From NCBI RefSeq assembly GCF_000058485.1, contig NC_008278.1, forward strand, positions 5,388,962 to 5,452,961: DNA of 64,000 nt, written 5' to 3'. Every line of letters begins with the position of its first letter. Within the stretch, counting starts at the first letter, position 1. Source of the DNA: Frankia alni ACN14a (GTDB taxonomy: Bacteria > Actinomycetota > Actinomycetes > Frankiales > Frankiaceae). Under the pieces are notes generated by a model. That model saw only the letters and a program-made list of their open reading frames with translations, searched no databases and had not been told where the DNA came from. The translations under genes and the position numbers were made by a program. Shown piece by piece: positions 20,073-34,786 of this stretch.

Positions 20073-20867
20073 GTGACCACGCCAACCGAGACATCATCTA
20101 CCGGATCGAACGAGTGTTCCGCATACCTGGCGGTTCCCGCGACGCCGGTCCGCCTGGTCACCGCGATCGCAGGGGTCGTGGTCGGGCTGACGTTCCTGTT
20201 CGGCCTCGGCAACGTCGCCGCTCTCGGTATCCACCTCGGTGTCCCCACCTACGTCGCCGTCCTCGTCGCACCCGCGGTCGACCTGTCCGTCGTCGGCCTT
20301 CTGGGCACCCGGTATCTGGCCCTGCACCACGGGCCCGCCGATGTGATCCGCTCCGCGCGGCGGCTGCTCATCTTCGCCAGCCTGGTCACCCTGGCGCTGA
20401 ACATCGCCGAACCCCTCATCACCGGCCACTACGGCAAAGCCGCCTTCGACGCCGTCGGACCCCTCCTCCTGATCGGATGGTCCGAGATCGGCCCGAGGCT
20501 CCTGCAGGCCATGCAGACCACCACGGCCAGCGCCCAGCCATCTCCCAGCCCGGTCATGGATGCACCTGACAGAACCACGGCCGCCGTGACGGGCATGCCG
20601 CCAACCAGCGCGGCCGAAGGAGCAACCGCGCCAAGCGGGACGGCAACTCAGCACGACGATCCGGGCGCACGGGAGCAGGACCTGCTGCATCGCGCGCGGG
20701 CCGAGGACGTGCTGCACTGGCAACAGCACCAACGACCGATCTCTGCGGAGACGCTGCGTAAACGGCTCGCCGTCGGTATGGGGACCGCCCGCGGCTTGGT
20801 CACCCAGCTGCGCACTGATACCCACATCGCCCTCGACACTCGGGATGTTCGCGGGAACTGTTCATGA
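20073..20867 (+). CDS. SpdB/DUF2637-like membrane protein with C-terminal HTH
   Basis: The 264-aa product has about four hydrophobic helices (residues ~25-130), with ALGIHLGVPTYVAVLVAPAV in a layout like the DUF2637/SpdB proteins of actinomycete integrative elements. A Pro/Thr-rich linker follows, then a helix-turn-helix-like end (residues ~205-255: AEDVLHWQQHQRPISAETLR). Start GTG 20073. SpdB-type proteins act in plasmid spread between hyphae, but no TraB, Rep or excisionase is nearby, so this is probably an element relic. The HTH end is duplicated at 22606-22790. Its stop overlaps the convergent nuclease-like gene by 6 bp. Confidence 0.65.
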   Translation: MTTPTETSSTGSNECSAYLAVPATPVRLVTAIAGVVVGLTFLFGLGNVAALGIHLGVPTYVAVLVAPAVDLSVVGLLGTRYLALHHGPADVIRSARRLLIFASLVTLALNIAEPLITGHYGKAAFDAVGPLLLIGWSEIGPRLLQAMQTTTASAQPSPSPVMDAPDRTTAAVTGMPPTSAAEGATAPSGTATQHDDPGAREQDLLHRARAEDVLHWQQHQRPISAETLRKRLAVGMGTARGLVTQLRTDTHIALDTRDVRGNCS

Positions 20868-22160
20868 ACTTAGGGAGATCGAGAGGATGGCTCCGTCGGG
20901 TGAGGCTGCATGTGCCCGAGTTGTCTGCCTTGCCTGAGACCGCCGATGGCGGGCAGAGAGTTCATTCGCGAACTTCGCCTGCGCGCTAAGCACAGCGCCC
21001 GGGCCGTCTGTTGACAAAGCCTTGATGATGGGCTTCGCGACGCCATGGAAAACAGTGAGTGCCTGGCGGCCAAAACTGATCCGGGTCCGGCGTCCCACAG
21101 CCTCGCCGTATGGGGTTCTGGTTGTCGGCGGACGCTCCAGCCGCGCAGTGTCAACCGACGGCCGACCGGCCAGATCGCCGCGCCAGGCATTCGGAGCCCA
21201 GCGGCGGGCAGCATTAGCGTCATCTGCGAGACCGGCGAGCCGCGCCCAGGAGACGCGGAGCGCTGCGGCCACCAGCACTTCAGATGGAAGATCGCTCAAC
21301 CGTGCATCTAGCGGACTTGCATCCGTCCGTATTCGCGCTGTATTGAAGCCGAGCACAGTCTGGTCAGGTGTCAGAAGATCCATGGGCGCCTCGTGGAGCC
21401 TGTCATCCCCCGAGAGTTCCAGCGCCCGGTACTGCACCGTGTCGCCTGCGGCGACGGTACTCACTGCCAGTCCGGACGGCCGTTGGCCATCGACGAGAAG
21501 GCTACCCAGTTGGCCTGTGGCCCTCGCGAGTTGCGGCACGGCGATGCTGGGATCGGATGTGCCCTTGCACTCAAGAACGTGCACGCGGAAATGGCGAGGA
21601 GACTTCGAGGGGTCGTTCGCGACGAGGAGGTAGTCCGGGTATCGATGTCCAGCACTCACCTCGATCTCCCTGCCTGCGACGCTGAGCGACCCCCAGCGCA
21701 GAGCAACGTCGATATCAACCGGGTCGACCAGGTTGAGCGCCCTCGGGCTGGGGGCTGAGGCCTGTAGCCACCGTTCGGCGAGCAGGACACCGAAACCGAT
21801 GCCGAGATCCTCGGAGACATGGCGGCGCTGGGTCCCCACAATTTGCGCCCCCGTGTTACTGACTCGAAGCAACCCGTCGGAACTATCGCATTCAAAGAAC
21901 GCGTGGTAGCGGGCCAGCCCCCACAGCCGGTAAAGTTCGGCCGCGTCGTCGTGGGGACGTGGCCGCGTCGCGATAGCGAGCCTGTGAAGCGCCTCGGCGG
22001 GCCTCAGGTCGATGTGCTCCTTGATGCAGGCCACGGGCACGACCACATGCCCCTTCGGGAAGTCGCCGTGTCTCGTGACCAAGTTTACAAGATCGGCGTT
22101 ACTCTGGCCCTTAACCCTTGCCTTGGTCCGGATAGCTTCCACAGCCTCAGCGAGATCCAC
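20862..22160 (-). CDS. Putative PD-(D/E)xK nuclease-like protein
   Basis: An unrecognised 432-aa protein. Around residues 175-200 it shows YPDYLLVANDPSKS followed by a strand ending VLECKGTSD. This fits a PD-(D/E)xK nuclease core (Asp, then Glu-x-Lys) with the usual spacing and a preceding Gly/Ser-rich strand. The C-terminal third is basic (RHRRSQARQ). Start is GTG 22160, the first possible start after an in-frame stop; no strong ribosome site. The gene lies between two copies of an HTH-coding segment, in a setting full of defence genes, so an antiphage or restriction role is plausible but unproven. Confidence 0.55.
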   Translation of the reverse strand: MDLAEAVEAIRTKARVKGQSNADLVNLVTRHGDFPKGHVVVPVACIKEHIDLRPAEALHRLAIATRPRPHDDAAELYRLWGLARYHAFFECDSSDGLLRVSNTGAQIVGTQRRHVSEDLGIGFGVLLAERWLQASAPSPRALNLVDPVDIDVALRWGSLSVAGREIEVSAGHRYPDYLLVANDPSKSPRHFRVHVLECKGTSDPSIAVPQLARATGQLGSLLVDGQRPSGLAVSTVAAGDTVQYRALELSGDDRLHEAPMDLLTPDQTVLGFNTARIRTDASPLDARLSDLPSEVLVAAALRVSWARLAGLADDANAARRWAPNAWRGDLAGRPSVDTARLERPPTTRTPYGEAVGRRTRISFGRQALTVFHGVAKPIIKALSTDGPGAVLSAQAKFANELSARHRRSQARQTTRAHAASPDGAILSISLSS

Positions 22161-22495: not shown

Positions 22496-22795
22496 GTGCT
22501 GGACGGTCAGGCCGAGGGCGACTCGCCCGAGTCGATCCGGGTCGACCAGCCTATGGTGCCGCACATCCATGGTCCGGTCGAGGCGGGACCACGCCGAGAG
22601 GGATCGGGCGCACGGGAGCAGGACACGCTCCAGCGGGCACGTGCCGAGGACGTCCTGCACTGGCAGCAGCACCAGCGGCCGATCTCTGCCGAAACCCTTC
22701 GTAAGCGCCTCCACGTCGGTGCAGGTACCGCCCGCAAGCTCGTCACTCGGCTACGCGGCGACACACATATTACACTGAATAGCCGAGTGCCGTAG
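22496..22795 (+). CDS. Stand-alone HTH segment, paralogue of the SpdB-like tail
   Basis: The 99-aa frame from GTG 22496 ends with a near copy of the C-terminal domain of the gene at 20073. Both contain ARAEDVLHWQQHQRPISAET and LRKRL. The membrane domain is absent. It may be a short DNA-binding protein or the leftover of a second SpdB-like gene. The two copies flank the nuclease-like gene, as if it had inserted between or been captured by duplicated DNA. Confidence 0.45.
   Translation: MLDGQAEGDSPESIRVDQPMVPHIHGPVEAGPRREGSGAREQDTLQRARAEDVLHWQQHQRPISAETLRKRLHVGAGTARKLVTRLRGDTHITLNSRVP
22606..22790 (+). repeat. Direct repeat copy 2 of an HTH-coding segment
   Basis: About 185 bp resembling 20663-20855 at roughly 80% by eye, in the same orientation, beginning with gggcgcacgggagcaggac in both copies. 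The copies bracket 20862-22600. Confidence 0.7.
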
Positions 22796-22904: not shown

Positions 22905-23981
22905 CTACCGATTTTCCCAATCTTGCAAGTAGCTCGTAACCGTGGGCGCGTTCTTCGCGAGGGCACTGCGCCAATTCAGAAGTCCGTCGTTTTGCAAACG
23001 ACCGACGATAATAATTGGGTGTACACCAAGTTTCTTGGCGACCGCCGTTAGCCAGGTCCGACCTACGCGTTCTGGAATGGCGGGGATCGGGCTGGGTAGC
23101 ACCCATTTCGCGGCGAGCTCATTGGCATCTTTTTCCTGATGCCTGCCGTTGCCGTTTTCCTCGTCTAGGATCACAGTGTCGGTGATGTGGTCAAGTACGA
23201 CATGCGCCACCTCATGCAAGATGGTGAAGAGCACCTTATCAAGCCGTTGACCGCGACCAGAAATTCCGATTACGGGCGTCCCGCCCATACTGAACGCGGC
23301 CCCGTCAATCTTACTGGAAGGGAATGCCTCCACATAGACTAGCCGAACACCAACATCCGCAAATCTCCCTGGCAAGTCGGCGAAAGCTTGTGGATTTTGC
23401 AGGTCGCGGCTCAACCGTTCAGCCAACCCTCGCAGTCGGATTGGAGAATAGACTGAAACCGTCTGGCTCTCTGCTTGCCGTCGCACGCAGGCTAGCCACG
23501 TTAGCTGGGTAGACGACGCCTGATCGCCAAGATTGCTTCGCCGCGCGGCCATCGGGAGTTTAGGTTGCTCCCCAATGTGGTCTATATTGAGTAGCCGGCA
23601 TAGTTGGTCCGCCTGCCCACCGAGCGTAGTCGCAGTGACTATCCCACGTTTGCGTAGGACGGCAAGGGGTGCGAGCTCCGTCAGACGGGCCCGTAGCCTC
23701 ACGTCGTCCAATTTCCTGCGGGCGCCCTCATCCTGTTCTTGTCGCCACAGGTGATATTGGTCTTGGTACCTCAGCCAGTATTCGGGACTTGTGCCGAGCG
23801 CCGCCGAGATCTGGGCTGCCGACTCTCGCGTGATCTCCTTCTTACCAGAAATGATCTCCGAGACCACCTGTGCGGGTCGGCCGATGATCTCGGCAAATTC
23901 CGCCTGGGACCACCCCCGCGCGTCCAGTTCCTCTAGGAGGTGCTCACCCACCGGGAAGGCTTCCGCAGGTCCGGTATTCAT
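22905..23981 (-). CDS. higA: HigA-type antitoxin fused to ImmA/IrrE metallopeptidase
   Basis: Antitoxin half of a HigBA module. Residues ~10-65 form an XRE/HigA helix-turn-helix (WSQAEFAEIIGRPAQVVSEI). Residues ~200-300 carry an ImmA/IrrE-type zinc peptidase domain with ILHEVAHVVLDH and a downstream EKDANELAAKW helix that could supply the third ligand. Length (358 aa) fits the long HigA/COG3093-COG2856 type. ATG 23981 overlaps the higB stop by 4 bp. The HTH probably represses the shared promoter near 24304-24331. The peptidase may respond to stress by cleaving a repressor or the toxin complex; that is inference from the family. Confidence 0.85.
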   Translation of the reverse strand: MNTGPAEAFPVGEHLLEELDARGWSQAEFAEIIGRPAQVVSEIISGKKEITRESAAQISAALGTSPEYWLRYQDQYHLWRQEQDEGARRKLDDVRLRARLTELAPLAVLRKRGIVTATTLGGQADQLCRLLNIDHIGEQPKLPMAARRSNLGDQASSTQLTWLACVRRQAESQTVSVYSPIRLRGLAERLSRDLQNPQAFADLPGRFADVGVRLVYVEAFPSSKIDGAAFSMGGTPVIGISGRGQRLDKVLFTILHEVAHVVLDHITDTVILDEENGNGRHQEKDANELAAKWVLPSPIPAIPERVGRTWLTAVAKKLGVHPIIIVGRLQNDGLLNWRSALAKNAPTVTSYLQDWENR

Positions 23982-24292
23982 GACGCTGCCTCCCGCATGC
24001 TGGACCCGACGATGGCCACCACCGTCACCTGGTCTGTCTTGGAGTCATCGAAGGTCAACAACAACCTCGACCCGTTTACCAACCGAATCGAGCAACGCGT
24101 CCCGTCACGACCGTTCTCAGCTCTCAGGTCTAAGGACGCGACCTGCCGCAGATCTTCACGGTCCCTCGCGGCGAACAGCGACTGGAGCTTTTGGCGGTAG
24201 GACCTGACGAGGTCCGGCTCCCACTCGATCGGCCGGAACGCAGCATCTACGGCGAGGCGCCGAAGCCCCTCGTTGTCGTAGATCAGCAGCAT
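23978..24292 (-). CDS. higB: HigB-like RelE/ParE-family toxin
   Basis: A 104-aa protein in the toxin-first order typical of higBA. The sequence MLLIYDNEGLRRLAVD, with YRQKLQSLFAARDREDLRQV and a final DDSKTDQVTVVAIV, fits the RelE-fold killer-protein family that cleaves mRNA on the ribosome. ATG 24292 has GGAGGC just upstream; GTG 24304 would precede that site. Divergent from the Ubl cassette. Confidence 0.75.
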   Translation of the reverse strand: MLLIYDNEGLRRLAVDAAFRPIEWEPDLVRSYRQKLQSLFAARDREDLRQVASLDLRAENGRDGTRCSIRLVNGSRLLLTFDDSKTDQVTVVAIVGSSMREAAS

Positions 24293-24303
24293 GCCCGCCT
24301 CCA

Positions 24304-24331
24304 CCTATCACCCCGGGGCTGACGACGTCAA
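24304..24331 (-). promoter_or_regulatory. Candidate higBA promoter
   Basis: The minus strand reads TTGACG (24331-24326), a 16-bp spacer, then GATAGG (24309-24304), 11 nt before the higB ATG. Reasonable -35 and -10 elements; HigA autoregulation would act here. Confidence 0.4.
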
Positions 24332-24432: not shown

Positions 24433-24528
24433 GGACAGAAGACGGCTACCCGACCACCCCACCTGGGGAGTGTGACGGGCGGGCGTCGTGATGGGTGTCG
24501 GAGCCGGCGCCCAGAGAGGAGAGGCAGG

Positions 24529-24801
24529 ATGGCCAGCGCAGCGGAGGTGGAGGCGGAGCTCGCCCGTCGTCCCTCGGGTATCCCGGTGACGGTCAACGGC
24601 CAGCGGGTCGACCTCCCGGACCGGGAGGTCACCGGACTGGAGATCAAAAAGGCGGCGGTCCAGCAGGGCGTCGCGATCGAGGTCGGCTTCCAGTTGTCGG
24701 TCCGGGAGGGCCAGCGCTACCGGGTCATCGGCGATGGCGACCCAATCCGGGTTCACCCGAAGCAGGAGTTCATCGCGGTCGCGCCGGACGACAACTCGTG
24801 A
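24529..24801 (+). CDS. Ubiquitin-like protein (multi-ubiquitin family type)
   Basis: The 90-aa product looks like one beta-grasp domain of the bacterial multi-ubiquitin family: VTVNGQRVDLPDREVTGLEI then KKAAVQQGV, and YRVIGDGDPIRV before the last strand QEFIAVAP. The C-terminus is APDDNS, with no Gly-Gly and no tail to be trimmed. ATG 24529 follows a purine-rich AGAGGAGAGGCAGG site. Its stop overlaps the E2-like GTG start by 4 bp, the first link of a three-gene cassette. It probably serves as the conjugated or bound modifier of the neighbouring JAB-E1 and E2-like proteins. Confidence 0.75.
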   Translation: MASAAEVEAELARRPSGIPVTVNGQRVDLPDREVTGLEIKKAAVQQGVAIEVGFQLSVREGQRYRVIGDGDPIRVHPKQEFIAVAPDDNS

Positions 24802-25184
24802 CCGCGCTCTCCGCGGCCGTCGCGGAGGCCATCGACGCTGTCCGGGAGCAGTTCGCCGACACCGCGGTGGACGTCGTCCCGGACGGCGCCGGCGGCGCCT
24901 ACATCGTCGTCGAAAGCATCGATGTGGCCCCGCTCTACGACCCGCCGACGACGTGGCTCGGTTTCCACCTCAACGCCACCTACCCCGCGTCCGACGTCTA
25001 CCCGCACTACACCGGCCTGCTCACCAGGACCGACGGCCAGCCACTCGGCTCTGCGATCCAGAGCGTCACCTGGCGGGATCGGCCGGCGCTTCAGCTCTCC
25101 CGCAGTTCCAAACGCTGGAATCCCGCCGTCGACAACGCGGCGCTCAAGGCCCAGAAGGTCCTGACATGGCTGACCTCTCAGTGA
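24798..25184 (+). CDS. E2-like (UBC-fold, Prok-E2_E type) protein without cysteine
   Basis: The 128-aa product between Ubl and JAB-E1 genes resembles the prokaryotic E2 family E: WLGFHLNATYPASDVYPHYTG in the position of the UBC core, then LQLSRSSKRWNPAVDNAALK and a final KVLTWL helix. It contains no cysteine at all, so it cannot form the thioester of a classical E2. It may bind the Ubl or substrate non-covalently. GTG start within the Ubl stop; a 19-bp overlap with the next gene shows tight coupling. Confidence 0.65.
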   Translation: MTALSAAVAEAIDAVREQFADTAVDVVPDGAGGAYIVVESIDVAPLYDPPTTWLGFHLNATYPASDVYPHYTGLLTRTDGQPLGSAIQSVTWRDRPALQLSRSSKRWNPAVDNAALKAQKVLTWLTSQ

Positions 25185-26596
25185 ACCCGCCGGCCACCGG
25201 CTGGAGCCTGACCATCCCGATCAGGCTCTGGACGATGCTGGCCGACCACCTGTTCTCCGACGGCGACGAGCACGGAGCCGTCATCCTCGCCGGCTACACG
25301 GACGGCCCCCGCGGCACCCGGCTGTTGGCCCGCGACGTCATACTTGCCGCCGACGGCACCGACTTCGTCGACGGCACGACCGGCTACCGGGCGCTCGACG
25401 CGACGTTCGTCCGCGACCAGGCCCTCCGCGCCCGCGACGAGAAGCTCGCCTACCTCGCCGTCCACAACCACTCCGACATCCTCCAGCCCGGAGCTGTCGC
25501 GTTCTCGACGATCGACATAGCCAGCCATGAACGCGGATACCCAGCCCTGCGGCAGATCACCGGCCAGATCGTCGGTGGGCTCGTCCTCACCCCCCGAGCC
25601 GCCGCCGGCGACCTTTGGCTCCCCGACGGCACCCGCGCTGTCCTCGCCGAGACCGTCGTTCCGGGAAACAACATCATCCGGCTCCGCCCGCGGCCGGCAC
25701 CCACACCTGGCACCGCCCCACGGTGGGATCGGCAGGCGCTGCTGTTCGGCACGGCAGGGCAGCAGACCTTCGCCAGGATGCGCGTCGCGGTCGTCGGCCT
25801 CGGCGGAGCGGGGAGCATCATCACCGAACTCCTCGCCCGCCTCGGCGTCGGTGAACTCGTCCTGATCGACGGCGACCGGGTCGAAGTCACCAACCTGCCG
25901 AGGCTTCTCGCCGCCGAACCGGACGACGTCGGCGAACTCAAGGTCGATGTCGCCGCGCGCAACGCGCGCCGAGCCAACTCCGCCATCCAGATCACGGCCA
26001 TCGCCGAACGTGTCGAGCATCCCGACGCCCGCGACGCGCTGACCACCTGCGACTGGATCTTTCTGGCTGCGGACAGTCACTCCGCCCGGCACTGGGTCAA
26101 CCTCACCGTCCACCGGTACCTGATCCCCGCCAGCCAGGTAGGCGTCAAGATCCCGGTGGGTCCGGACGGCGAGATCGGTGAGATCCACGCCGCGGCTCGC
26201 TTGCTGCTGCCTGCCGAAGGCTGTCTGTGGTGCAACGGGCTGATCGACTCGACCCAGCTCGCGATCGATATGCACTCCGCAGCCGACCGGCGCAACGCGC
26301 AGTACGTCCCAGACGTCCCGGCCGCGAGTGTCATCGCGCTGAACGCGCTGCCCACCGCCGAGGCCGTCAACCACTTCATGCTCGCCGCCGTCCGCCTCCA
26401 CGACGACCCCACCGACAGTGCCTCGGTCCTGCACCACCCGCGAGGGCGCGATCGTGCGCTCCAGGACAGCCGACAAGATCCCGACTGCCCTTGGTGCACC
26501 AGGGCCGGCGGCCTCGCACGCGGCGCCGGTGACGTAGCGGAGGGCGCTGCCCGGCTTGTCGGCGTGCCCCGTGTACAAGCCCAAGATGGCTTGTGA
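25166..26596 (+). CDS. JAB deubiquitinase-like and ThiF/E1-like fusion protein
   Basis: 476 aa. Residues ~15-160 form a JAB/JAMM metallopeptidase: VHNHSDILQPGAVAFSTID carries HxH and SxxD, with about four residues more between them than the canonical HxH-x7-SxxD. Residues ~195-470 are a ThiF/MoeB/E1 adenylyltransferase: VVGLGGAGSIITELLARLGV, LVLIDGDRVEVTNLPR and AADSHSARHW. A zinc site is formed by CLWC (near 353) and CPWC (near 440). Apart from these only one other Cys (TTCDW) is seen, so a transthiolation Cys is doubtful. One protein would thus both activate and remove the Ubl. Confidence 0.85.
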   Translation: MADLSVNPPATGWSLTIPIRLWTMLADHLFSDGDEHGAVILAGYTDGPRGTRLLARDVILAADGTDFVDGTTGYRALDATFVRDQALRARDEKLAYLAVHNHSDILQPGAVAFSTIDIASHERGYPALRQITGQIVGGLVLTPRAAAGDLWLPDGTRAVLAETVVPGNNIIRLRPRPAPTPGTAPRWDRQALLFGTAGQQTFARMRVAVVGLGGAGSIITELLARLGVGELVLIDGDRVEVTNLPRLLAAEPDDVGELKVDVAARNARRANSAIQITAIAERVEHPDARDALTTCDWIFLAADSHSARHWVNLTVHRYLIPASQVGVKIPVGPDGEIGEIHAAARLLLPAEGCLWCNGLIDSTQLAIDMHSAADRRNAQYVPDVPAASVIALNALPTAEAVNHFMLAAVRLHDDPTDSASVLHHPRGRDRALQDSRQDPDCPWCTRAGGLARGAGDVAEGAARLVGVPRVQAQDGL

Positions 26597-26694
26597 CGAT
26601 CTTCTGACCGGATGCGCGACGGCCGACCGATCCGGCAGACCACGTGATGGCATGCGTCCGTTCCGGGGGTTCAGGGCCGTGGGTGGCAGGCTGT

Positions 26695-26706
26695 CCGACA
26701 TGTCGG
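26695..26706. promoter_or_regulatory. 12-bp palindrome upstream of hsdM
   Basis: CCGACATGTCGG is a perfect palindrome about 80 bp before the hsdM start, in the 187-bp gap after the Ubl cassette. It may be an operator, but a palindrome of this length can occur by chance. Confidence 0.25.
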
Positions 26707-26783
26707 GGCTGCGGCTAGCCTTGCCGGCAGGGGCGACCCGTGCACGGCCGGCCGGCGGTTGGATCTGAGACGAGCAGGGGGAC

Positions 26784-29204
26784 ATGTTGGGGCGCAAGCT
26801 GACGTTGCCGCAGCTGGAACGGCATCTGTACGCGGCGGCGGACATCCTTCGCGGCAAGATGGATGCCTCGGAGTTCAAGGAATACATCTTCGGGATGCTG
26901 TTCCTCAAGCGCGCGTCCGACGAGTTTGAGGTCGCCGAGGAGCGGGTCATCGCCCAGCTCATCGCTGAAGGGCGCAGCCGCGCGGACGCCGAGCAGCGGG
27001 CCACCGCCCGAGCACGGTACAGGGACACCCTCTACGTCCCGGAGGAGGCCCGGTGGGCTCGGTTGCGGGACCAGGTACACCACAACGTCGGCGACGAGCT
27101 GAACAAGGCGCTTCTTGCGTTGGAGGAGTGCAACAACACGGCGCTCGAAGGTGTCGTCCAACACATAGACTTCACCCGGACGGTCGGCCAGTCACGCATC
27201 CCGGACCGCAAGCTACGTGATCTGATCGCGCACTTCAATACGGTCAGGCTGCGGAATGAGGACTTCGAGTTTCCCGATCTTCTGGGTGCCGCGTATGAGT
27301 ATCTGATCGGGGAGTTCGCTGACTCGGCCGGTAAAAAGGGCGGTGAGTTCTACACTCCGCGGGCGGTCGTGCGGATGATGGTCGCCCTCGTCGACCCGAA
27401 GCCGAAAATGGAGATCTACGACCCATGCTCCGGCTCGGCCGGCATGCTGATCCTCGCCCGGGACTGGGTCGCCGAGCACGGCGGTGACCCGCGGGACCTA
27501 CGGCTGGCCGGCCAGGAGTACAACGGCGGCGTCTGGTCGATCTCGAAGATGAACCTGCTGCTCCACGGCATCCCCGACGCGGACATCAGGAACGGGGACA
27601 CCCTCGCCGAGCCGATGCACGTCTCCGGCGGAGAGTTGGAGCGGTTCGACCGGGTGCTGTCGAACCCGCCGTTCTCCCTGAATTACAGCCGGGAGGGGAT
27701 GGAGCGGGAGAACCGGTTCCGGTGGGGCTGGGCTCCCGAGGGTGGCAAGAAGGCTGACCTGATGTTCGTCCAGCACATGGTCGCGGTGCTGCGCGCGAAC
27801 GGCGTCGCCGCGACAGTCATGCCGCACGGCGTGCTGTTCCGCGGTGGCACCGAGCGCGACATCCGCACCGCCCTCCTCAACGACGACGTCATCGAAGCTG
27901 TGATCGGGCTGGCACCGAACCTGTTCTACGGGACGGGCATCCCCGCCTGCGTGCTGGTGCTGCGGGCGCCAGGGGCGAAGCCGGCCGAGCGCGCCGGCAA
28001 GGTGCTGTTCATCAACGCGGACGCAGAGTTTCGTGCCGGCCGGGCACAGAACTACCTCATGCCGGAACACGTCGAAAAGATCGTCGCGGCATACCGCGAG
28101 TTCACCGACATTCCCGGCTACGCGAAGGTCGTCACCCGGGACGAGCTGCGCGCGGGCGGTGACAACCTAAACATCCGCCGGTATGCCGACAACGCGCCGC
28201 CCCCCGAGCCGCAGGACGTCCGCGCCCACCTGCACGGCGGAGTGCCGCGTGCCGAGGTCACGGCGAAGGCCAACTTGTTCGCCGCGCATGGGTTCGACCC
28301 CGGCGCGGTGTTCGTCGACCGGGATGCCAACTACCTCAACTTCGCCGACGTGACGAGAGACGACCTTCGGCGGCTCGTCGAGGAGCACCCAGGGGTGCTC
28401 ACCCGGGAACGCGAGGCAGCGGAAGCGCTCTCCGCCTGGTGGGAGCGCAACCGCGAGGTCTTCGACAGGCTGGCAGCGGCGCGCGGGCTACGCACCACAC
28501 GAACAGCCCTGCTGGCAAGTTTCTCCGCGGCGCTGACCCCCATAGGCCTGCTCGACCGCTTCCAAGTCGCCGGCGTGTTCGTCCGCTGGTGGGACGCCGT
28601 CCAGTTCGACCTGCGCACCCTCGCCGCGAACGGCTACAACGGAGTGCTCGACGGCTGGGTGACCACCATCATCACCGCCGCCGAGGACTCGAAGTCGAAG
28701 TCCGACCCATTCGACCACCGGCTGGTCCGGGCGCTCCTCACCGACTTTCTCGGCGAGCTAGCCGAGGTAGAGGCCCAGCGCGCGGAACTCGATGCCAAGA
28801 TTAAGGCAGGTACGGCCCCGGCGAACGACGGCGAAGAGGAGGATGCCGGCGAGGAGAGCGCCGATATCGAACGACTCTCCCCCGCGGAGCTAGCTTCCTC
28901 GAAGCGGGAGCTGACCGCGGTGAAGCGGCGACATCGCGAGCTGACCCGTGAGGTAGTCACTCGGCTGGAGAAGGCCCGCGCCGAGCTGACCACCGCCGAG
29001 GTCCAAGACCTAGTGCTCCGTCTCTTCCTTGAGACCCTCGCCGAGCATTTGAACGGACGTGTCGCAATCCATCTCCGCCAGGTGGCCATAGCTGTAGAGA
29101 ATTGGTGGGATAAGTACGCGGTCTCCCTGCGTGAGCTCGAATATGTCCGCGCCGCTGCAACAGCACAGCTCGCCGACTATCTCAAGGATCTCGAATATGA
29201 GTAA
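26784..29204 (+). CDS. hsdM: Type I restriction-modification methyltransferase subunit
   Basis: N6-adenine methyltransferase subunit of a type I RM complex. The 806-aa product has the N-terminal HsdM helical domain ([20 protein letters not shown]), SAM motif [13 protein letters not shown] near residue 213 and catalytic NPPF near residue 293. The C-terminal ~300 residues extend beyond the usual ~500-550 aa, with an acidic linker ([11 protein letters not shown]) and helices that probably contact HsdS. ATG 26784 follows AGGGGG by 3 nt. It overlaps hsdS by 8 bp. Confidence 0.95.
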
Positions 29205-30462
29205 GTCGAATTCCACTCAATGGACTACGACTTCACTAGGCTCCATAGTAACATTCTGGCCCGGATACGCTTTTCCGGAGGTCGAGCAGGGTAAAATTTC
29301 GGGTGATATTCCCTTTTTTAAGGTTGGAGACATGTCTCGGCCGGGGAATGATGTCGCACTAAACTCGGCCGAACACTACGTGACCTCGCGGACTTGTCGA
29401 TTTTTTGGATGGAAGCCTTGCCCGGCGGGGGCGGTTGCATTTGCGAAAGTCGGAGCCGCACTACTCAAGAACAGGCGCCGACTGATCACGCAAGACACCC
29501 TTCTCGACAATAACATGCTCGCCGTCGCACCGCGTCCCGGCATCAGCTCGCGGTACCTGTACTGGCTGATGCAGACGATTGACTTTTCCAGATTCGTTCA
29601 GGATGGAGCGGTCCCGTCTGTTAATCAGAATCAGATTGGTTCCTACAAGGTAGCCATCGCACCCTTGTCAGAGCAACAGAAGATCACCGAGGTCTTAGAC
29701 ACTGTAGATGAGGCAGTTCGGTCGACGGAGCGCCTCATAGCGAAGCTATATATTGAGCGCGCGGGCATCATCCAGGAGCGTCTAGGCGAGTGGGAATCAC
29801 GCCACGCCGACAACTCCGATGGGAGCTCACGGGACGTTCGCTGGGTACAGCTCGGCGATATAGTACGCGAAACACTTCTAGGCACTCCACTAAGGGGCAG
29901 GAAAGACGGCAACATACTACTAGTAAAAATGGGAAATATCTCCGGCGGCATGCTCAACATGGAGCACACCGAACACATCTCCCGGTCGATCGTCGGGTCG
30001 TCGATAGGCCACCTCGAACTCCAACACGGAGATCTACTATTCAATACCCGGAACACGCCAGATTTGGTCGGCAAGACGGCCGTATGGCCAAAAAATTTGC
30101 CGCCAGCTATTTGTGATAACAATATTCTTAGGATACGCTTCCAACCCGAGGTGCTACCCGAATTCGTCAATGCATATATGAGCTGGGGGCTTGGCAGAAA
30201 CAGGCTGGCGAGGTTGGCTACAGGAACCACCAGCGTGGCGGCAATTTATTGGCGGGATCTATGCAAATTCCCAATTCCCGTACCCGCTATCAGCGAGCAG
30301 CGCCGATTGGTCAGCGGTATCGACTACTCAGGGTCGCGGTTGTCCTGCGAGCAAGTCGAGCTTGAAAAATTTCTTCTGATTAAGCAGGGGTTGATGGATG
30401 ATCTCCTAGCTAAGCGGGTAGGTGTATGGGATGTGTCGGATGTGGATACGCTGACGGCATGA
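29197..30462 (+). CDS. hsdS: Type I restriction-modification specificity subunit
   Basis: DNA-recognition subunit with two target-recognition domains. The 421-aa protein begins [15 protein letters not shown]; each half ends in the usual conserved segment ([17 protein letters not shown] near 170 and [12 protein letters not shown] near 375). ATG 29197 lies inside the end of hsdM. Base composition drops and AT-rich codons rise relative to hsdM and hsdR, the common sign of exchanged or fast-evolving specificity genes. The target sequence cannot be read from the protein. Confidence 0.92.
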
Positions 30463-33400
30463 CCGGGGGTGCTGAGTTCGAGCTGGTTGAGCGTCCGTTC
30501 GTCGAGCAGCTGTGTGGTCTGGGCTGGGCTCATCTCGCCGGGTCGAAGCACGATCCGATGGCGAGCGGTCGGACGTCGTTCTCCGAGGTACTGGTGGAGG
30601 GTCGGCTGCGGGCGGCGCTGCAGCGGATCAATCCGGGACCGGACGGCGGGCCGTGGCTTGACGATGGCCGGCTCGCGCAGGCCGTAGCCGCGCTGACCCG
30701 CCCGAAGGCGACCAAGCTGGTCGAGATCAACGAGGAGCTGACGGAGGCACTGCTGCTCGGTGTGCCCGTTGAGGGGATTCCAGAGGTCGACGGTAGCCGG
30801 AACCGGCGGGTCCGGTTCATCGACTGGGACACGCCGTCGAACAACGACTTCCTGGTGGTCAACCAGTTTCGGGTGGACATCCCGGGCAGCCAGGGCCGCC
30901 GCTACATCGAGCCGGACCTCGTGCTGTTCGTCAACGGCATCCCGCTGGTGGTCGTGGAGGCGAAGAGCCCGACGACGTCGTCTCCGATGGCGAAGGCGAT
31001 TCGCCAGCTGGCTCGGTACGCCGACCAACGGGGGGCTGTCTCCCGGGAGGGTAACGAGCGGCTGTTCCACACCAACCAGGTCGTTGTCGCCACGAGCTGG
31101 GATGTGGCGAAGGTCGGGACGTTCACCTCGGATCCGGATCATTTCGCCGAGTGGAAGACGACCGAACCTGCTCCGGAGGTCGAGGTCGCCAGAGTGCTCG
31201 GGGTGAGCGAGCTGACGAGCCAACAGCGGCTCGTCGCAGGCATGCTCGCCCCGGAGCGGCTGTTGGACATCGTCCGGCACTTCACGCTGTTCATGCCGGC
31301 GCAGGCCGGCCGGAGAGTGAAGATCGTCGCTCGCTACCAGCAGTACCGGGCTGTCCAGCGCACAATCCACCGTCTGATCACCGGCAAGACCCGGGTGGTG
31401 GACGCCGAGTTCGACCGGCGTGGCGGGATCATCTGGCACACGCAAGGCTCGGGTAAGTCGCTGACCATGGTGTTCCTGATCCGGGCCATGCGGACGCATC
31501 CCGATCTCGTCAGTTTCAAGGTCGTGGTGGTCACCGACCGGAAGGATCTCCAGGCGCAGCTTGCGAAGACCGCCGAGCTAACCGGGGAGACACCCCGGAC
31601 GGCGAGGAAGGTCGAGCAGGTTCGCTCGTTGCTGTCTGTTCCGGGCAAGGCGCTGCTCTTCGCGATGATCCAGAAGTATCGGAACCCGGACGCGGCGAAG
31701 GACGCCCCGCTGGAGGTGAAGTCACTCGGGGTGCTGGACCCGTCCGAGGGCGTGGTCGTGCTCGTGGACGAGGCGCACCGCTCGCACAGCAGCACGCTGC
31801 ACGCCGTGCTGTTGGACGCGTTGCCGAATGCGGCAAGGATCGGGTTCACCGGGACGCCGATTATCATGGGGAGACGGAAACGTACCCATGCGATCTTCGG
31901 CCCGTATCTAGACCGGTACACCATCGGCGAGTCCGAGGCTGACGGTGCGACCGTACCGATCCGCTACGAGGGCCGTACGACGAAAAGCGACGTTCAGGAC
32001 GCGGCGGATCTCGACGAGCTGTTCGAGGACATGTTTCCCGACCTCACCGACACGCAGCTGGCGAAGATCCGACGCCGATGGGGAGCGACCGGCAACGTTC
32101 TCGAAGCGGAGAAGATGATCGCGGCGAAGGCCCGCGACATGCTCCGCCACTACGTCGACACCGCGCTGCCCGGCGGATTCAAAGCGCAGGTCGTCGCGAC
32201 CAGTCGGCTCGCCGCGGTGCGCTACCGCGAAGCGCTGTTGGCCGCCCGCGATGAGATGGTTGCCCGACTCGATGCGCTGCCCGCCGAGTTGCGCACGGCC
32301 GAGGCCGCGGACCGGGCCGCCTCCGCCGAGGGCATCCCCGGCCTCGGGCGCGCCCGGCTGCGCGACGTGCGGGCCTGGCCGTACCGCGACCTGATCGCCC
32401 GGCTCGACTTCGTCCCGGTCATCTCCGGCGAGCAGAACGAGAAGGACTGGCGCGACTGGACCGACGAGGCCCGGCAGAAGATCGTGATCGAGGAGTTCAA
32501 GAAGCCGCTGCCCGCGCCCGACGATCCGACCCCGGACCCGGCCACGACCAGCACGGTCGCCTTCCTGCTGGTCAAGTCGATGCTGCTGACCGGCTTCGAC
32601 GCGGCCGTGGACCAGGTTATCTACCTCGACCGGCGGATCAAGGAAGCCGAGTTGCTCCAGGCCATCGCTCGGGTGAACCGCACCGCGCGGGGCAAGGCCA
32701 ACGGCTACGTCGTCGACTACTTCGGCGTTGCCAAGCATCTGCACGCCGCGCTGGAGGCGTATGCGGCTGAGGACGTCGACGGGGCGCTGGCAAGCATCAC
32801 CGACGAGCTCCCGCTGCTGGCCGACCGGCACGCCCGGGTCCGCGCGCTGTTCACCGACCGCGGCCAGGAGCGCTTCCACACCCCGGCTGATCAGGAAGGC
32901 TGCGTCCAACTGCTGGCCGACGACGCGCTGCGGGCCGCGTTCCAGGTCGCCTACCGGGCACTGACCCGCAGTCTGGAGACGGTCCTGCCACGGCAGGAGG
33001 CACTGCCCTATGTCGCCGACACGAAGGCGTTCGGGGTGATCGGCCTGCTCGCGCGGCGACGCTACGACCGCGACGACGCCGACTTCGACGTCTCCGTCTA
33101 CGGCGAGAAGGTACGCCGCCTGATCGACAACCACATCGTCGCGCTCGGCATCAGCCAGAAGATCCCACCGGTGTCGCTCACCGACGCCCAGTTCGACGAG
33201 AAGGTCGGCGGACTGACGTCGAAGCGGGCGAAAGCGTCGGAGATGGAGCACGCCCTACGCCACCACATCAGCGGCATGCTCGACGCCGACCCGGTTCGCG
33301 CGCGCACTCTGTCCCAGCAGCTGTCCGAGATCCTCGACCGGCTCCGTGACCAGTGGGACCAGCTCGCCCTCGAACTCGGCGACCTGATCGACAAAGCACG

Positions 33401-33791
33401 TGCCGGGCGGACCGCTGCCGAGAATCCCGACGACGCGCCTGACGGTGTCCAGCTGACTCCGATCGAACGTCTCTTCTTCGACGTTCTACGCGCGGAACGG
33501 GTCGCCGAGGGCAAGGAGATGACACCGGTCGCCGTCGAGGCCGTCGCCGAGCTGGTCACCTTCATTGTCGATCATCTGCGTAGGGAGATCGGAAGGGTGC
33601 ACTTCTGGGGGAACGCTCACGCCCAGCAACGCTTGCACAGCTGGATCACCGTCGCGGTCAGCGACGTGTCGATCGACGGAGACGACCTGTTCGACCAGGA
33701 CCGGGCGGAGGCCATCGCCGACCAGATCGTCGAGTTGGCACGGCACAACCACGCTGCGGTTATCACGACAGTCCCGCCCACGGTCGGCTAA
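30459..33791 (+). CDS. hsdR: Type I restriction endonuclease/translocase subunit
   Basis: Motor and nuclease of the RM complex. The 1110-aa product has a PD-(D/E)xK nuclease near residues 150-170 (PDLVLFVNGIPLVVVEAKS), Walker A TQGSGKSLT near 330, VVVLVDEAHRSHS near 433 and helicase motif VI (QAIARVNRTARGKANGYVVD). The C-terminal helical domain binds HsdM. ATG 30459 overlaps the hsdS stop by 4 bp. All three subunits look intact, so the system should be active. Confidence 0.95.
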   Translation: MTGGAEFELVERPFVEQLCGLGWAHLAGSKHDPMASGRTSFSEVLVEGRLRAALQRINPGPDGGPWLDDGRLAQAVAALTRPKATKLVEINEELTEALLLGVPVEGIPEVDGSRNRRVRFIDWDTPSNNDFLVVNQFRVDIPGSQGRRYIEPDLVLFVNGIPLVVVEAKSPTTSSPMAKAIRQLARYADQRGAVSREGNERLFHTNQVVVATSWDVAKVGTFTSDPDHFAEWKTTEPAPEVEVARVLGVSELTSQQRLVAGMLAPERLLDIVRHFTLFMPAQAGRRVKIVARYQQYRAVQRTIHRLITGKTRVVDAEFDRRGGIIWHTQGSGKSLTMVFLIRAMRTHPDLVSFKVVVVTDRKDLQAQLAKTAELTGETPRTARKVEQVRSLLSVPGKALLFAMIQKYRNPDAAKDAPLEVKSLGVLDPSEGVVVLVDEAHRSHSSTLHAVLLDALPNAARIGFTGTPIIMGRRKRTHAIFGPYLDRYTIGESEADGATVPIRYEGRTTKSDVQDAADLDELFEDMFPDLTDTQLAKIRRRWGATGNVLEAEKMIAAKARDMLRHYVDTALPGGFKAQVVATSRLAAVRYREALLAARDEMVARLDALPAELRTAEAADRAASAEGIPGLGRARLRDVRAWPYRDLIARLDFVPVISGEQNEKDWRDWTDEARQKIVIEEFKKPLPAPDDPTPDPATTSTVAFLLVKSMLLTGFDAAVDQVIYLDRRIKEAELLQAIARVNRTARGKANGYVVDYFGVAKHLHAALEAYAAEDVDGALASITDELPLLADRHARVRALFTDRGQERFHTPADQEGCVQLLADDALRAAFQVAYRALTRSLETVLPRQEALPYVADTKAFGVIGLLARRRYDRDDADFDVSVYGEKVRRLIDNHIVALGISQKIPPVSLTDAQFDEKVGGLTSKRAKASEMEHALRHHISGMLDADPVRARTLSQQLSEILDRLRDQWDQLALELGDLIDKARAGRTAAENPDDAPDGVQLTPIERLFFDVLRAERVAEGKEMTPVAVEAVAELVTFIVDHLRREIGRVHFWGNAHAQQRLHSWITVAVSDVSIDGDDLFDQDRAEAIADQIVELARHNHAAVITTVPPTVG

Positions 33792-33882
33792 ATGCGCCAC
33801 CGAACTGACAGCAGCAGGAGGGGCGAGCGTAGACCACACCGTCTCACCGGCCCAGTCGACGCAGTCCGACGGGCCGACCCCC

Positions 33883-33888
33883 TACGCT
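33883..33888 (+). promoter_or_regulatory. Candidate leaderless -10 box of the YgjP-like gene
   Basis: TACGCT ends 6 nt before ATG 33895, the leaderless pattern. The metallohydrolase gene may be transcribed separately from hsdMSR. Confidence 0.35.
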
Positions 33889-33894
33889 TGCTCT

Positions 33895-34680
33895 ATGACA
33901 AGCGGCGAGAGCGTGCGGATGACGATCGGAGGCTTGGACTTCGTCGTCCGCGCCTCCGAGCTCCGTCGCACCGTCGGGATCACCGTCGACCGGGACGGAA
34001 CCCTGCTGCTGCACACCCCAACTGACGCCGACCCGGACCGGCTGGCACGGTGGGTACGCGGCCATCGCTCGTGGATTCACCAACGCCTTGCGGAGAAGGA
34101 CGTCCTGCTCTCCCCTCGGCCGGTGAAGCAGTTCGTCAACGGAGAGGGCTTCGACTACCTCGGCCGGCACTACCGCCTGCTCCTCACTGACGATCCGACG
34201 GTGGACGACGGCGGTGTCCTCCCCCGGGCTGGCCGCCCAGCCGCTGGACGCCACCGAACCCCGGCGTCCCCGGTGCGCCTCATCCGGGGCCGAATACACC
34301 TGCCCCGCAGCCTGGCCGCGACAGACATCGACGGCGCCGCAGCACTGATCGGCTGGTACAGGCACCGAGGGGCAACCTGGCTACCACCCCGCATCCGTCC
34401 CTGGGCCAGCCGCATGGGCGTCGACATCACCGGCCTCGACATCCGCGACCTCGGCCACCGATGGGGCTCGCTCAGCACCACCGGCCGAATCAACATCCAT
34501 TGGGCGACCATGCAGCTCCCGGTCAGTCTCGTCGACTACGTCCTCGTCCACGAACTCGCCCACGCCCACGAACGAAACCACACACCGACCTTCTGGCGAC
34601 TGGTCGAACGCGCCATACCTGACTACGAGACCCGCAAGAACAGGCTCGCCGCCCTCGGTGCCACCCTCTGGCTCGGATAA
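33895..34680 (+). CDS. YgjP/DUF45-like zinc metallohydrolase
   Basis: The 261-aa protein belongs to the YgjP-like (WLM/M48-related) family: LGHRWGSLSTTGRINIHWAT, then LVHELAHAHERNHTPTFW near residue 215 with the HExxH zinc motif and the third His in NHTPTFW. Members often sit just after hsdR in type I RM loci, with an unknown role. ATG 33895 is preferred; ATG 33922 is a later option. A low-complexity stretch (residues ~100-125) interrupts the N-terminal beta domain. It lies about 100 bp downstream of hsdR on the same strand. Confidence 0.85.
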   Translation: MTSGESVRMTIGGLDFVVRASELRRTVGITVDRDGTLLLHTPTDADPDRLARWVRGHRSWIHQRLAEKDVLLSPRPVKQFVNGEGFDYLGRHYRLLLTDDPTVDDGGVLPRAGRPAAGRHRTPASPVRLIRGRIHLPRSLAATDIDGAAALIGWYRHRGATWLPPRIRPWASRMGVDITGLDIRDLGHRWGSLSTTGRINIHWATMQLPVSLVDYVLVHELAHAHERNHTPTFWRLVERAIPDYETRKNRLAALGATLWLG

Positions 34681-34786
34681 CAGCGGCTGACCACCTGCGT
34701 CAAGGAACGGCGGCGGCACTGGCAGGGAAGGGACTCTCCCTCGAGAGGTGTTTTCGGCCCGCGAAACTTTGGCGAGGGCGTGCGAC

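Follow-up and report, generated by a model that had tools for sequence, protein, structure and literature searches.

A distinct clade of Bub-type cassettes with a serine-ended ubiquitin-like protein

The window analyzed here, a 64,000-nucleotide stretch of Frankia alni ACN14a DNA, carries a three-gene ubiquitin-like (Ubl) cassette of the Bub type. By sequence comparison, the cassettes whose Ubl ends in Ser are one distinct clade of that type. Conserved residues and predicted structures incline us, with moderate confidence, towards a conjugation cassette in which the Ubl would pass as an oxyester from Tyr380 of the E1 to Ser101 of the E2, with removal by the JAB domain. We give about an even chance to the broader proposition that a widespread clade has given up the C-terminal Gly, in favor of a Ser-attached Ubl, a Cys-free Tyr-to-Ser relay and a JAB domain tuned to the D-D-N-S ending.

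Genes, folds and known relatives of the cassette

The Ubl gene (24529-24801, + strand) encodes a 90 aa protein with a single beta-grasp domain, and is followed on the same strand by an E2-like gene (24798-25184, GTG start, 128 aa) and a JAB-E1 fusion gene (25166-26596, 476 aa, with JAB at about residues 12-172 and E1 at about 185-450). These gene limits agree with an earlier sequence-only reading of the DNA, which had described three genes overlapping by 4 bp (Ubl/E2-like) and 19 bp (E2-like/JAB-E1); the translations likewise confirm its E2-like protein with zero Cys residues and its Ubl ending in APDDNS. The Ubl matches Pfam Multi_ubiq (PF14452, 1.9e-16), with one domain in the window protein and longer Ubls (214-266 aa) in some relatives, while the JAB-E1 protein matches Pfam ThiF (6.6e-38). 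The gene order and the Ubl ending recur in relatives of at least 14 named phyla, which together with the Multi_ubiq and ThiF matches indicates that the cassette is more than a chance arrangement. PADLOC also returned E1-E2 matches for it.

The best PDB match of the JAB-E1 sequence was Citrobacter BubCD (1e-22, residues 12-405), with MccB as the next family (3e-15). A single-chain AlphaFold model made on the clade alignment (pLDDT 89.6) gave BubCD in the first eight rows of a PDB comparison (1.3e-34 to 1.7e-31), followed by ThiF and MccB. By sequence and modeled fold, the protein is a BubCD homologue. The E2-like protein had no match in Pfam, NCBIfam or PADLOC, and a PDB search with its single sequence came back empty, so that a profile was needed to reveal its relationship to BubB: one built from seven E2-like relatives matched Citrobacter BubB with an E value of 3.3e-4. 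BubB was also the sole PDB match at E 0.001 or better (1e-5, TM 0.78) for a single-chain AlphaFold (AF2) model on the clade alignment (pLDDT 92.9), and VIA-align gave Z 13.5 against 9eae_C, the next matches being eukaryotic E2 and UEV chains (8.3). Profile and model thus identify the E2-like protein as a BubB homologue with an E2 fold. An unrelated fold, which the sequence-only reading had named as a way in which it could fail, is rejected by these fold matches, with BubB at their top. For the single Ubl sequence, a PDB search likewise gave no relative; its best match, at 0.006, was a designed repeat protein.

Operons of this composition have been described before. In excerpts of Iyer et al. 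2006 (PMC1779556), the type 6e operon combines one to three Ubl domains and a Cys-less E2/RWD-like domain with a JAB-E1 fusion and with protein Y, which has a metal-binding signature; actinobacteria are among its hosts. Excerpts of a 2026 paper (PMC13373217) name such operons Bub and count 544 of them, 219 with CapW or CapH+CapP regulators. Operons that pair a Cys-less E2 with a JAB-E1 have hence been known since 2006 as type 6e, and were named Bub in 2025-26; a lack of thioester chemistry is thus no novelty of this cassette, and Bub homology accounts for what looked like a strange, non-conjugating set of proteins. The earlier proposal of a distinct way of attaching or sensing a Ubl has to be narrowed to its unusual Ser end, since a Cys-less E2 with a JAB-E1 has been in print since 2006 (PMC1779556, excerpts). 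The clade with a Ser-ended Ubl is, on present alignments, what remains unusual relative to known Bub.

The likeness to Citrobacter Bub (BubA/BubB/BubCD; PDB 9ea4, 9ea5, 9ea8, 9eae and 9eav) extends to a Cys-less E2 of the same fold with a conserved Ser, a JAB domain fused N-terminally to a ThiF-type E1 with matched Tyr370/Tyr380 and JAMM Asp104/Asp117, and a Multi_ubiq domain number (one in the window) within the 6e/Bub range of one to three. However, E1 identity to Citrobacter is only about 24%, the window-clade Ubl is Ser-ended, the E2 motif is S-R-R/K in the window clade vs. S-R/W-H in 15 of 18 other E2s, and no DUF6527 gene was found in the window clade. Within the DNA searched by profile models, none of the 86 clade loci listed has such a (protein Y-type) gene; as controls, a two-sequence model recovered 6/6 annotated proteins and an eight-sequence model found L028, L029, L110 and L112. 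Such a gene accompanies many 6e/Bub operons but not every one, and does not appear to be essential, as four loci of other Bub types (L121, L122, L126 and L127) list none either. Type 6e, as excerpted, shares with the cassette the Ubl protein, the Cys-less E2-like domain and the JAB domain at the E1 N-terminus, but lists protein Y, not found here, and has its E2 called inactive; the section describing it does not take up how the Ubl ends.

More distant systems offer partial parallels. Bil and type II CBASS use Cys-based transfer. BilABCD and the type II CBASS proteins Cap2/Cap3 resemble the cassette in their E1, E2-fold and JAB parts and in their defense context (excerpts of PMC11354881), but differ in that the parts are separate or E2-E1 fused and the modifier or substrate is Gly-ended.

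Relatives were gathered with an E1 alignment query, which succeeded where a single-E1 query had given no match in a first genome scan. The best 80 of 95 loci from named genomes, many of them MAGs, were joined by seven plasmid regions and two further genomes to give 89 loci. A Ubl was obtained from 84 of these, and removal of identical sequences left 80 distinct Ubls among the matches listed, the window Ubl not counted. The Ubl tail played no part in the locus search, although the E1 query was itself built from DDNS loci. The five loci without a Ubl are L063, L093 and L100, which lie at contig ends, and L106 and L076. Raw frames read by eye suggest that the last two are broken members: transposase-like sequence lies within the E2 region of L106, and an E2 remnant alone precedes the E1 of L076. 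A 74-row E1 tree, the product of a quick search with long-branch warnings that included about half of the clade rows, separated the 47 clade rows from all the rest by a branch whose SH-aLRT value was 100. Label shuffling gave a value as low in 0/500 cases, and one outgroup row (L014) fell among the other Bub-like rows.

The serine end of the Ubl

The last four codons of the Ubl gene (24787..24798, + strand) encode Asp-Asp-Asn-Ser. DDNS also ends 73 of the 80 distinct relatives among the matches listed, with HEDS in two and QEDS, DENS and DHCS (the last in L105) in one each; the remaining two have extra residues past the motif (DDNS-SEPTC in L073 and DDTS-WR in L097). Ser thus closes the motif in 80/80 and is the end of the protein in 78/80. 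The mature Ubl of a canonical cascade ends in Gly; here the motif at that end is Ser-terminated in every distinct relative listed, and the tail lacks any conserved Gly. This agrees with the sequence-only reading, which had described a Ubl without Gly-Gly and would have been contradicted by processing to a Gly end. Of five invariant residues in an alignment of 38 relatives (N23, K40, A43, L56 and S90), one is the terminal Ser, in an alignment whose mean column identity is 19%. No other tail residue is as well conserved as this Ser, and the residues that precede the motif are variable (VAP, IEN, VDG, IAD, VDN).

Both Ser codon families are used among the relatives listed (61 TCN, 12 AGY). Clustering at 60% identity gave 30 Ubl clusters, 24 of them with DDNS, from at least 14 named phyla; this spread, with the low column identity, means that relatedness does not account for the Ser end. 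We also considered that the ending might be an artefact of stop/start overlap, and rejected this since 44/44 loci without a Ubl-E2 gene overlap are still Ser-ended. No Ser-ended Ubl was reported in the literature searched, the scope of which stops short of Ye 2026 and Gong 2025, so that earlier notice is possible.

The Ubls of other Bub types are different. Among 18 read by eye, 14 have a terminal or near-terminal Gly, or one where Ubl and E2 join: TTTEG (L028, L029, L123), TTEGGAA (L124), DQTEG (L125), KANFG (L131), TSPGVR (L127), TFGGGV (L130), VGNLG (L115), QGNFG (L118), INPGIRR (L114), QTDG/E2 (L121, L122) and QREG/E2 (L129). The Ser of DDNS therefore occupies the place held by Gly in most relatives. 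The other four, also Multi_ubiq proteins, lack such a Gly and finish in SAQVA (L126), AADVA (L119), DTGQS (L110) and GPTPVS (L007); variation of the last residue between clades may therefore be more general. The junction sequences belong to Ubl-E2 fusions within a single protein (1788-2528 in L121, 1755-2507 in L122 and 1816-2520 in L129), where the Gly would be a natural JAB cleavage site in these other Bub types.

These Gly-type tails bear on an alternative in which DDNS is a propeptide, trimmed by JAB or another protease so that an inner residue is adenylated. In its favor are related systems, in which Ubl precursors are processed by JAMM proteases, and other Bub types, which have a Gly followed by a tail (L124, L127, L130) or by a fused E2 (L121, L122, L129). 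In addition, the motif is non-terminal in L073 and L097, so that Ser might precede a cleaved residue. However, there is no shared Gly or other residue before DDNS for trimming to expose, and conservation within the tail peaks at the Ser, which is the last residue in all but two of the distinct Ubls listed. We consider trimming of DDNS unlikely.

The Asn of the motif raises another alternative, modeled on microcin C7. In that system, the terminal Asn of the peptide is cyclized and adenylated by MccB, a ThiF-fold enzyme that acts on a non-Gly peptide end. By analogy, the terminal Ser would be lost here and the exposed Asn cyclized and adenylated. MccB would share ThiF-fold adenylation with the cassette; among PDB families it ranks directly behind BubCD in sequence and close behind ThiF in fold, and Asn precedes Ser in 74/80 Ubls among the matches listed (73 DDNS, 1 DENS). 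But the Asn place is also taken by Asp, Cys or Thr (HEDS, QEDS, DHCS, DDTS), while Ser is never replaced. MccB moreover has no E2 and no JAB, acts on a terminal Asn, and gives a much weaker match than BubCD. An Asn-based activation of this kind is very improbable.

Conserved residues and a candidate Tyr-to-Ser relay

The E1 has Cys at positions 295, 353, 356, 441 and 444, the last four forming the CLWC and CPWC pairs; the few further Cys noted by the sequence-only reading thus come down to one (C295). The four zinc Cys are the sole invariant Cys among the 68 aligned E1s listed, C295 following with 57/68. Similarly, Cys occurs in at most 11 of the 69 aligned E2s listed in any column. A hidden catalytic Cys in either protein is rejected by these columns, in which Cys aligned elsewhere in homologues were sought and none was conserved; the catalytic Cys that a canonical cascade has in both E1 and E2 is thus absent.

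Other residues are strictly kept. Ser101 of the E2 (codon 25098..25100, + strand), the putative substitute for Cys as acyl acceptor, is present in 69/69 E2s and is followed by R102 in 68/69. Its counterpart in the E2s of other Bub types is the Ser of a W-S-R-H motif, and the position is Ser in 11/11 proteins across clades. In the E1, the residues E35, H100, H102, S114, D117, R189, N243, R246, K259, D303 and Y380 are invariant among the 83 clade sequences listed. Five of these are the JAMM residues (E35, H100, H102, S114, D117; 25268..25516, + strand), and Tyr380 (26303..26305, + strand), the proposed acyl-carrying residue, is also kept in 19 of 21 other relatives. With a chain-number offset of 2, the JAMM Asp of the window protein, D117, is the counterpart of Citrobacter D104, and its Y380 that of Y370.

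These patterns leave intact the earlier suggestion that adenylation and JAB cleavage are possible, the residues for both being in place. The accompanying claim that thioester transfer is not possible stands in so far as there is no conserved Cys; transfer as such may nevertheless occur, given invariant Ser101 and Tyr380 and the homology to BubB and BubCD. With a Cys relay ruled out by the Cys columns, the conserved residues point most naturally to a relay from Tyr to Ser. Bub is said, in work attributed to Ye et al. 2026, to proceed via oxyester rather than thioester intermediates. Indirect support for such chemistry comes from the title of a PDB entry, the complex BubCD(D104A/Y370F)-BubB-BubA(155-229), Y370 being mutated in 9eav.

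From the conserved residues we infer the following catalytic steps. The E1 half would bind the Ubl and adenylate the C-terminal carboxylate of Ser90 of DDNS, rather than that of a Gly. Tyr380 would then receive the Ubl as a tyrosyl oxyester, and Ser101 of the Cys-free E2 as a seryl oxyester, before its move to an amine or hydroxyl of a target. The fused JAB metalloprotease would remove the Ubl again, and might also shorten the few precursors that run on past the motif.

The acidic tail may be read by JAB R75, H121 and R123 and by the basic residue that follows Ser-Arg in the E2. R75, Y96, S120, H121 and R123 are invariant in the clade (83/83 among the matches listed) and are mostly different elsewhere: of 21 other relatives, 15 have a residue at position 121, which is Glu or Asp in every case, and Arg is found at position 123 in 2/21. 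Ser-Arg is followed by Arg or Lys in 66/69 clade E2s listed, as compared to His in 15/18 others. Such an acidic-to-basic swap in JAB and E2 would suit an acidic D-D-N-S tail. It should be noted that these clade-specific residues lie on one branch and so represent a single evolutionary event, not independent co-variation, and do not amount to proof.

The same proteins could instead form a non-covalent sensor, with the E2 as an inactive RWD-like binding domain and the E1 merely adenylating and holding the Ubl. The excerpts of Iyer et al. 2006 (PMC1779556) take the loss of the Cys to mean that such E2s have no catalytic activity, and those of PMC13373217 state that phage protection by Bub operons had not been shown, both of which fit a sensor. 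An idle domain, however, would need neither an invariant Ser101 nor an invariant Tyr380, and a JAMM site intact in 83/83 suggests that there is something to cleave. A sensor of this type is quite improbable in our view, and we retain the Tyr-to-Ser relay as the preferred reading.

To our knowledge, Ub, ThiS, MoaD, Urm1, the SAMPs and the Bil Ubls are all activated through a terminal Gly. This requirement is usually explained by a narrow E1 channel. A Ser held at the Gly place, motif-wide and in at least 14 named phyla, makes the question of whether the residue must be Gly directly testable. If the preferred reading is correct, Ser may add chemistry or specificity, for instance orthogonality to other Ubls or a hydroxyl next to the activated carbonyl. 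Tryptic digestion would leave QEFIAVAPDDNS on the modified residue rather than a Gly-Gly remnant, so that standard proteomic searches would miss the conjugates.

Putative regulators, neighboring genes and spread

Two genes lie divergent from the Ubl operon on the − strand: an Xre/HigA-like fusion of an HTH domain to an ImmA/IrrE (M78) peptidase (22905..23981; HTH_3 1.1e-10, Peptidase_M78 5.6e-8), which we propose as regulator, and a small gene of 108 aa (23978..24304), weakly assigned as HigB-like by its position. In PADLOC, the fusion matches PD-Lambda-2_B (1.3e-29) and capP (1.8e-5). The HigB-like protein found no match in Pfam or PADLOC, nor did a single-sequence search of the relatives' loci return one; a two-sequence model including the L021 protein found L068. 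An upstream stretch of 1.5 kb or more was present in 75 clade loci, and in 64 of them an HTH and/or ImmA match lies within 2.5 kb upstream; of the same 75 loci, among the matches listed, 25 have both, 51 have them on the opposite strand and 11 have none. HTH/ImmA-type neighbors are likewise reported, in excerpts, for Bub operons. What had been called a HigBA neighbor is therefore better described as a HigB-like gene with an Xre/HigA-ImmA fusion, at the usual place of the relatives' HTH/ImmA regulator. The divergent regulator probably holds the operon off until stress or infection, and the cassette may have a role in defense.

PD-Lambda-2 is a toxin-antitoxin-like defense system with a HigB-like and an Xre-peptidase component (PMC9519451, excerpts). 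The window pair resembles it in having a HigB-like gene beside a HigA-like Xre-peptidase fusion, but differs in that no C component was identified and in its divergent orientation to the Ubl operon, at the relatives' HTH/ImmA place.

The type I restriction-modification (RM) genes hsdM, hsdS and hsdR (26784..33791, + strand; Pfam, PADLOC) lie downstream of the cassette. The sequence-only reading was right about their presence, and they are common to one congener, G010, to which the window is 90-91% identical over 24489-29023 and 30382-34727 (cassette, hsdM and hsdR); however, similar RM proteins occur near only 7/87 loci among the matches listed, and RM as a fixed partner of the cassette is rejected. 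The sole part of the RM locus that breaks the G010 match is hsdS (29023-30382), an apparent specificity swap with hsdM and hsdR kept. At its other end, the match breaks off at window position 24489, 40 bp short of the Ubl gene, and G010 has HTH and ImmA genes there instead. We read this as an apparent swap of regulator modules at one operon between the window and G010.

The cassette was found in 1 of 12 other genomes of the same genus, and some of its relatives are located on plasmids (the seven plasmid regions among the loci examined). This combination favors horizontal transfer of the cassette. A phage-borne cassette was rejected: of 107 candidate stretches examined in viral contigs, none proved to be a relative.

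Some further genes of the region deserve mention. A gene for a YgjP-like metallopeptidase (33895-34680, + strand) follows hsdR, largely within the stretch shared with G010, and just beyond the RM genes lies a likely STAND-type defense gene (34787-37504, − strand) encoding 905 aa with TIR, NB-ARC and TPR parts. On the other side of the cassette, a 432 aa protein (20862-22160, − strand) has no match in Pfam, PADLOC or the relatives' loci. Two ORFs (20073-20867 and 22496-22795, + strand) have a C-terminal piece in common, ARAEDVLHWQQHQRPISAETLRKRL, and both stretches match one place in G010, suggesting a possible duplication beside the edge of the island.
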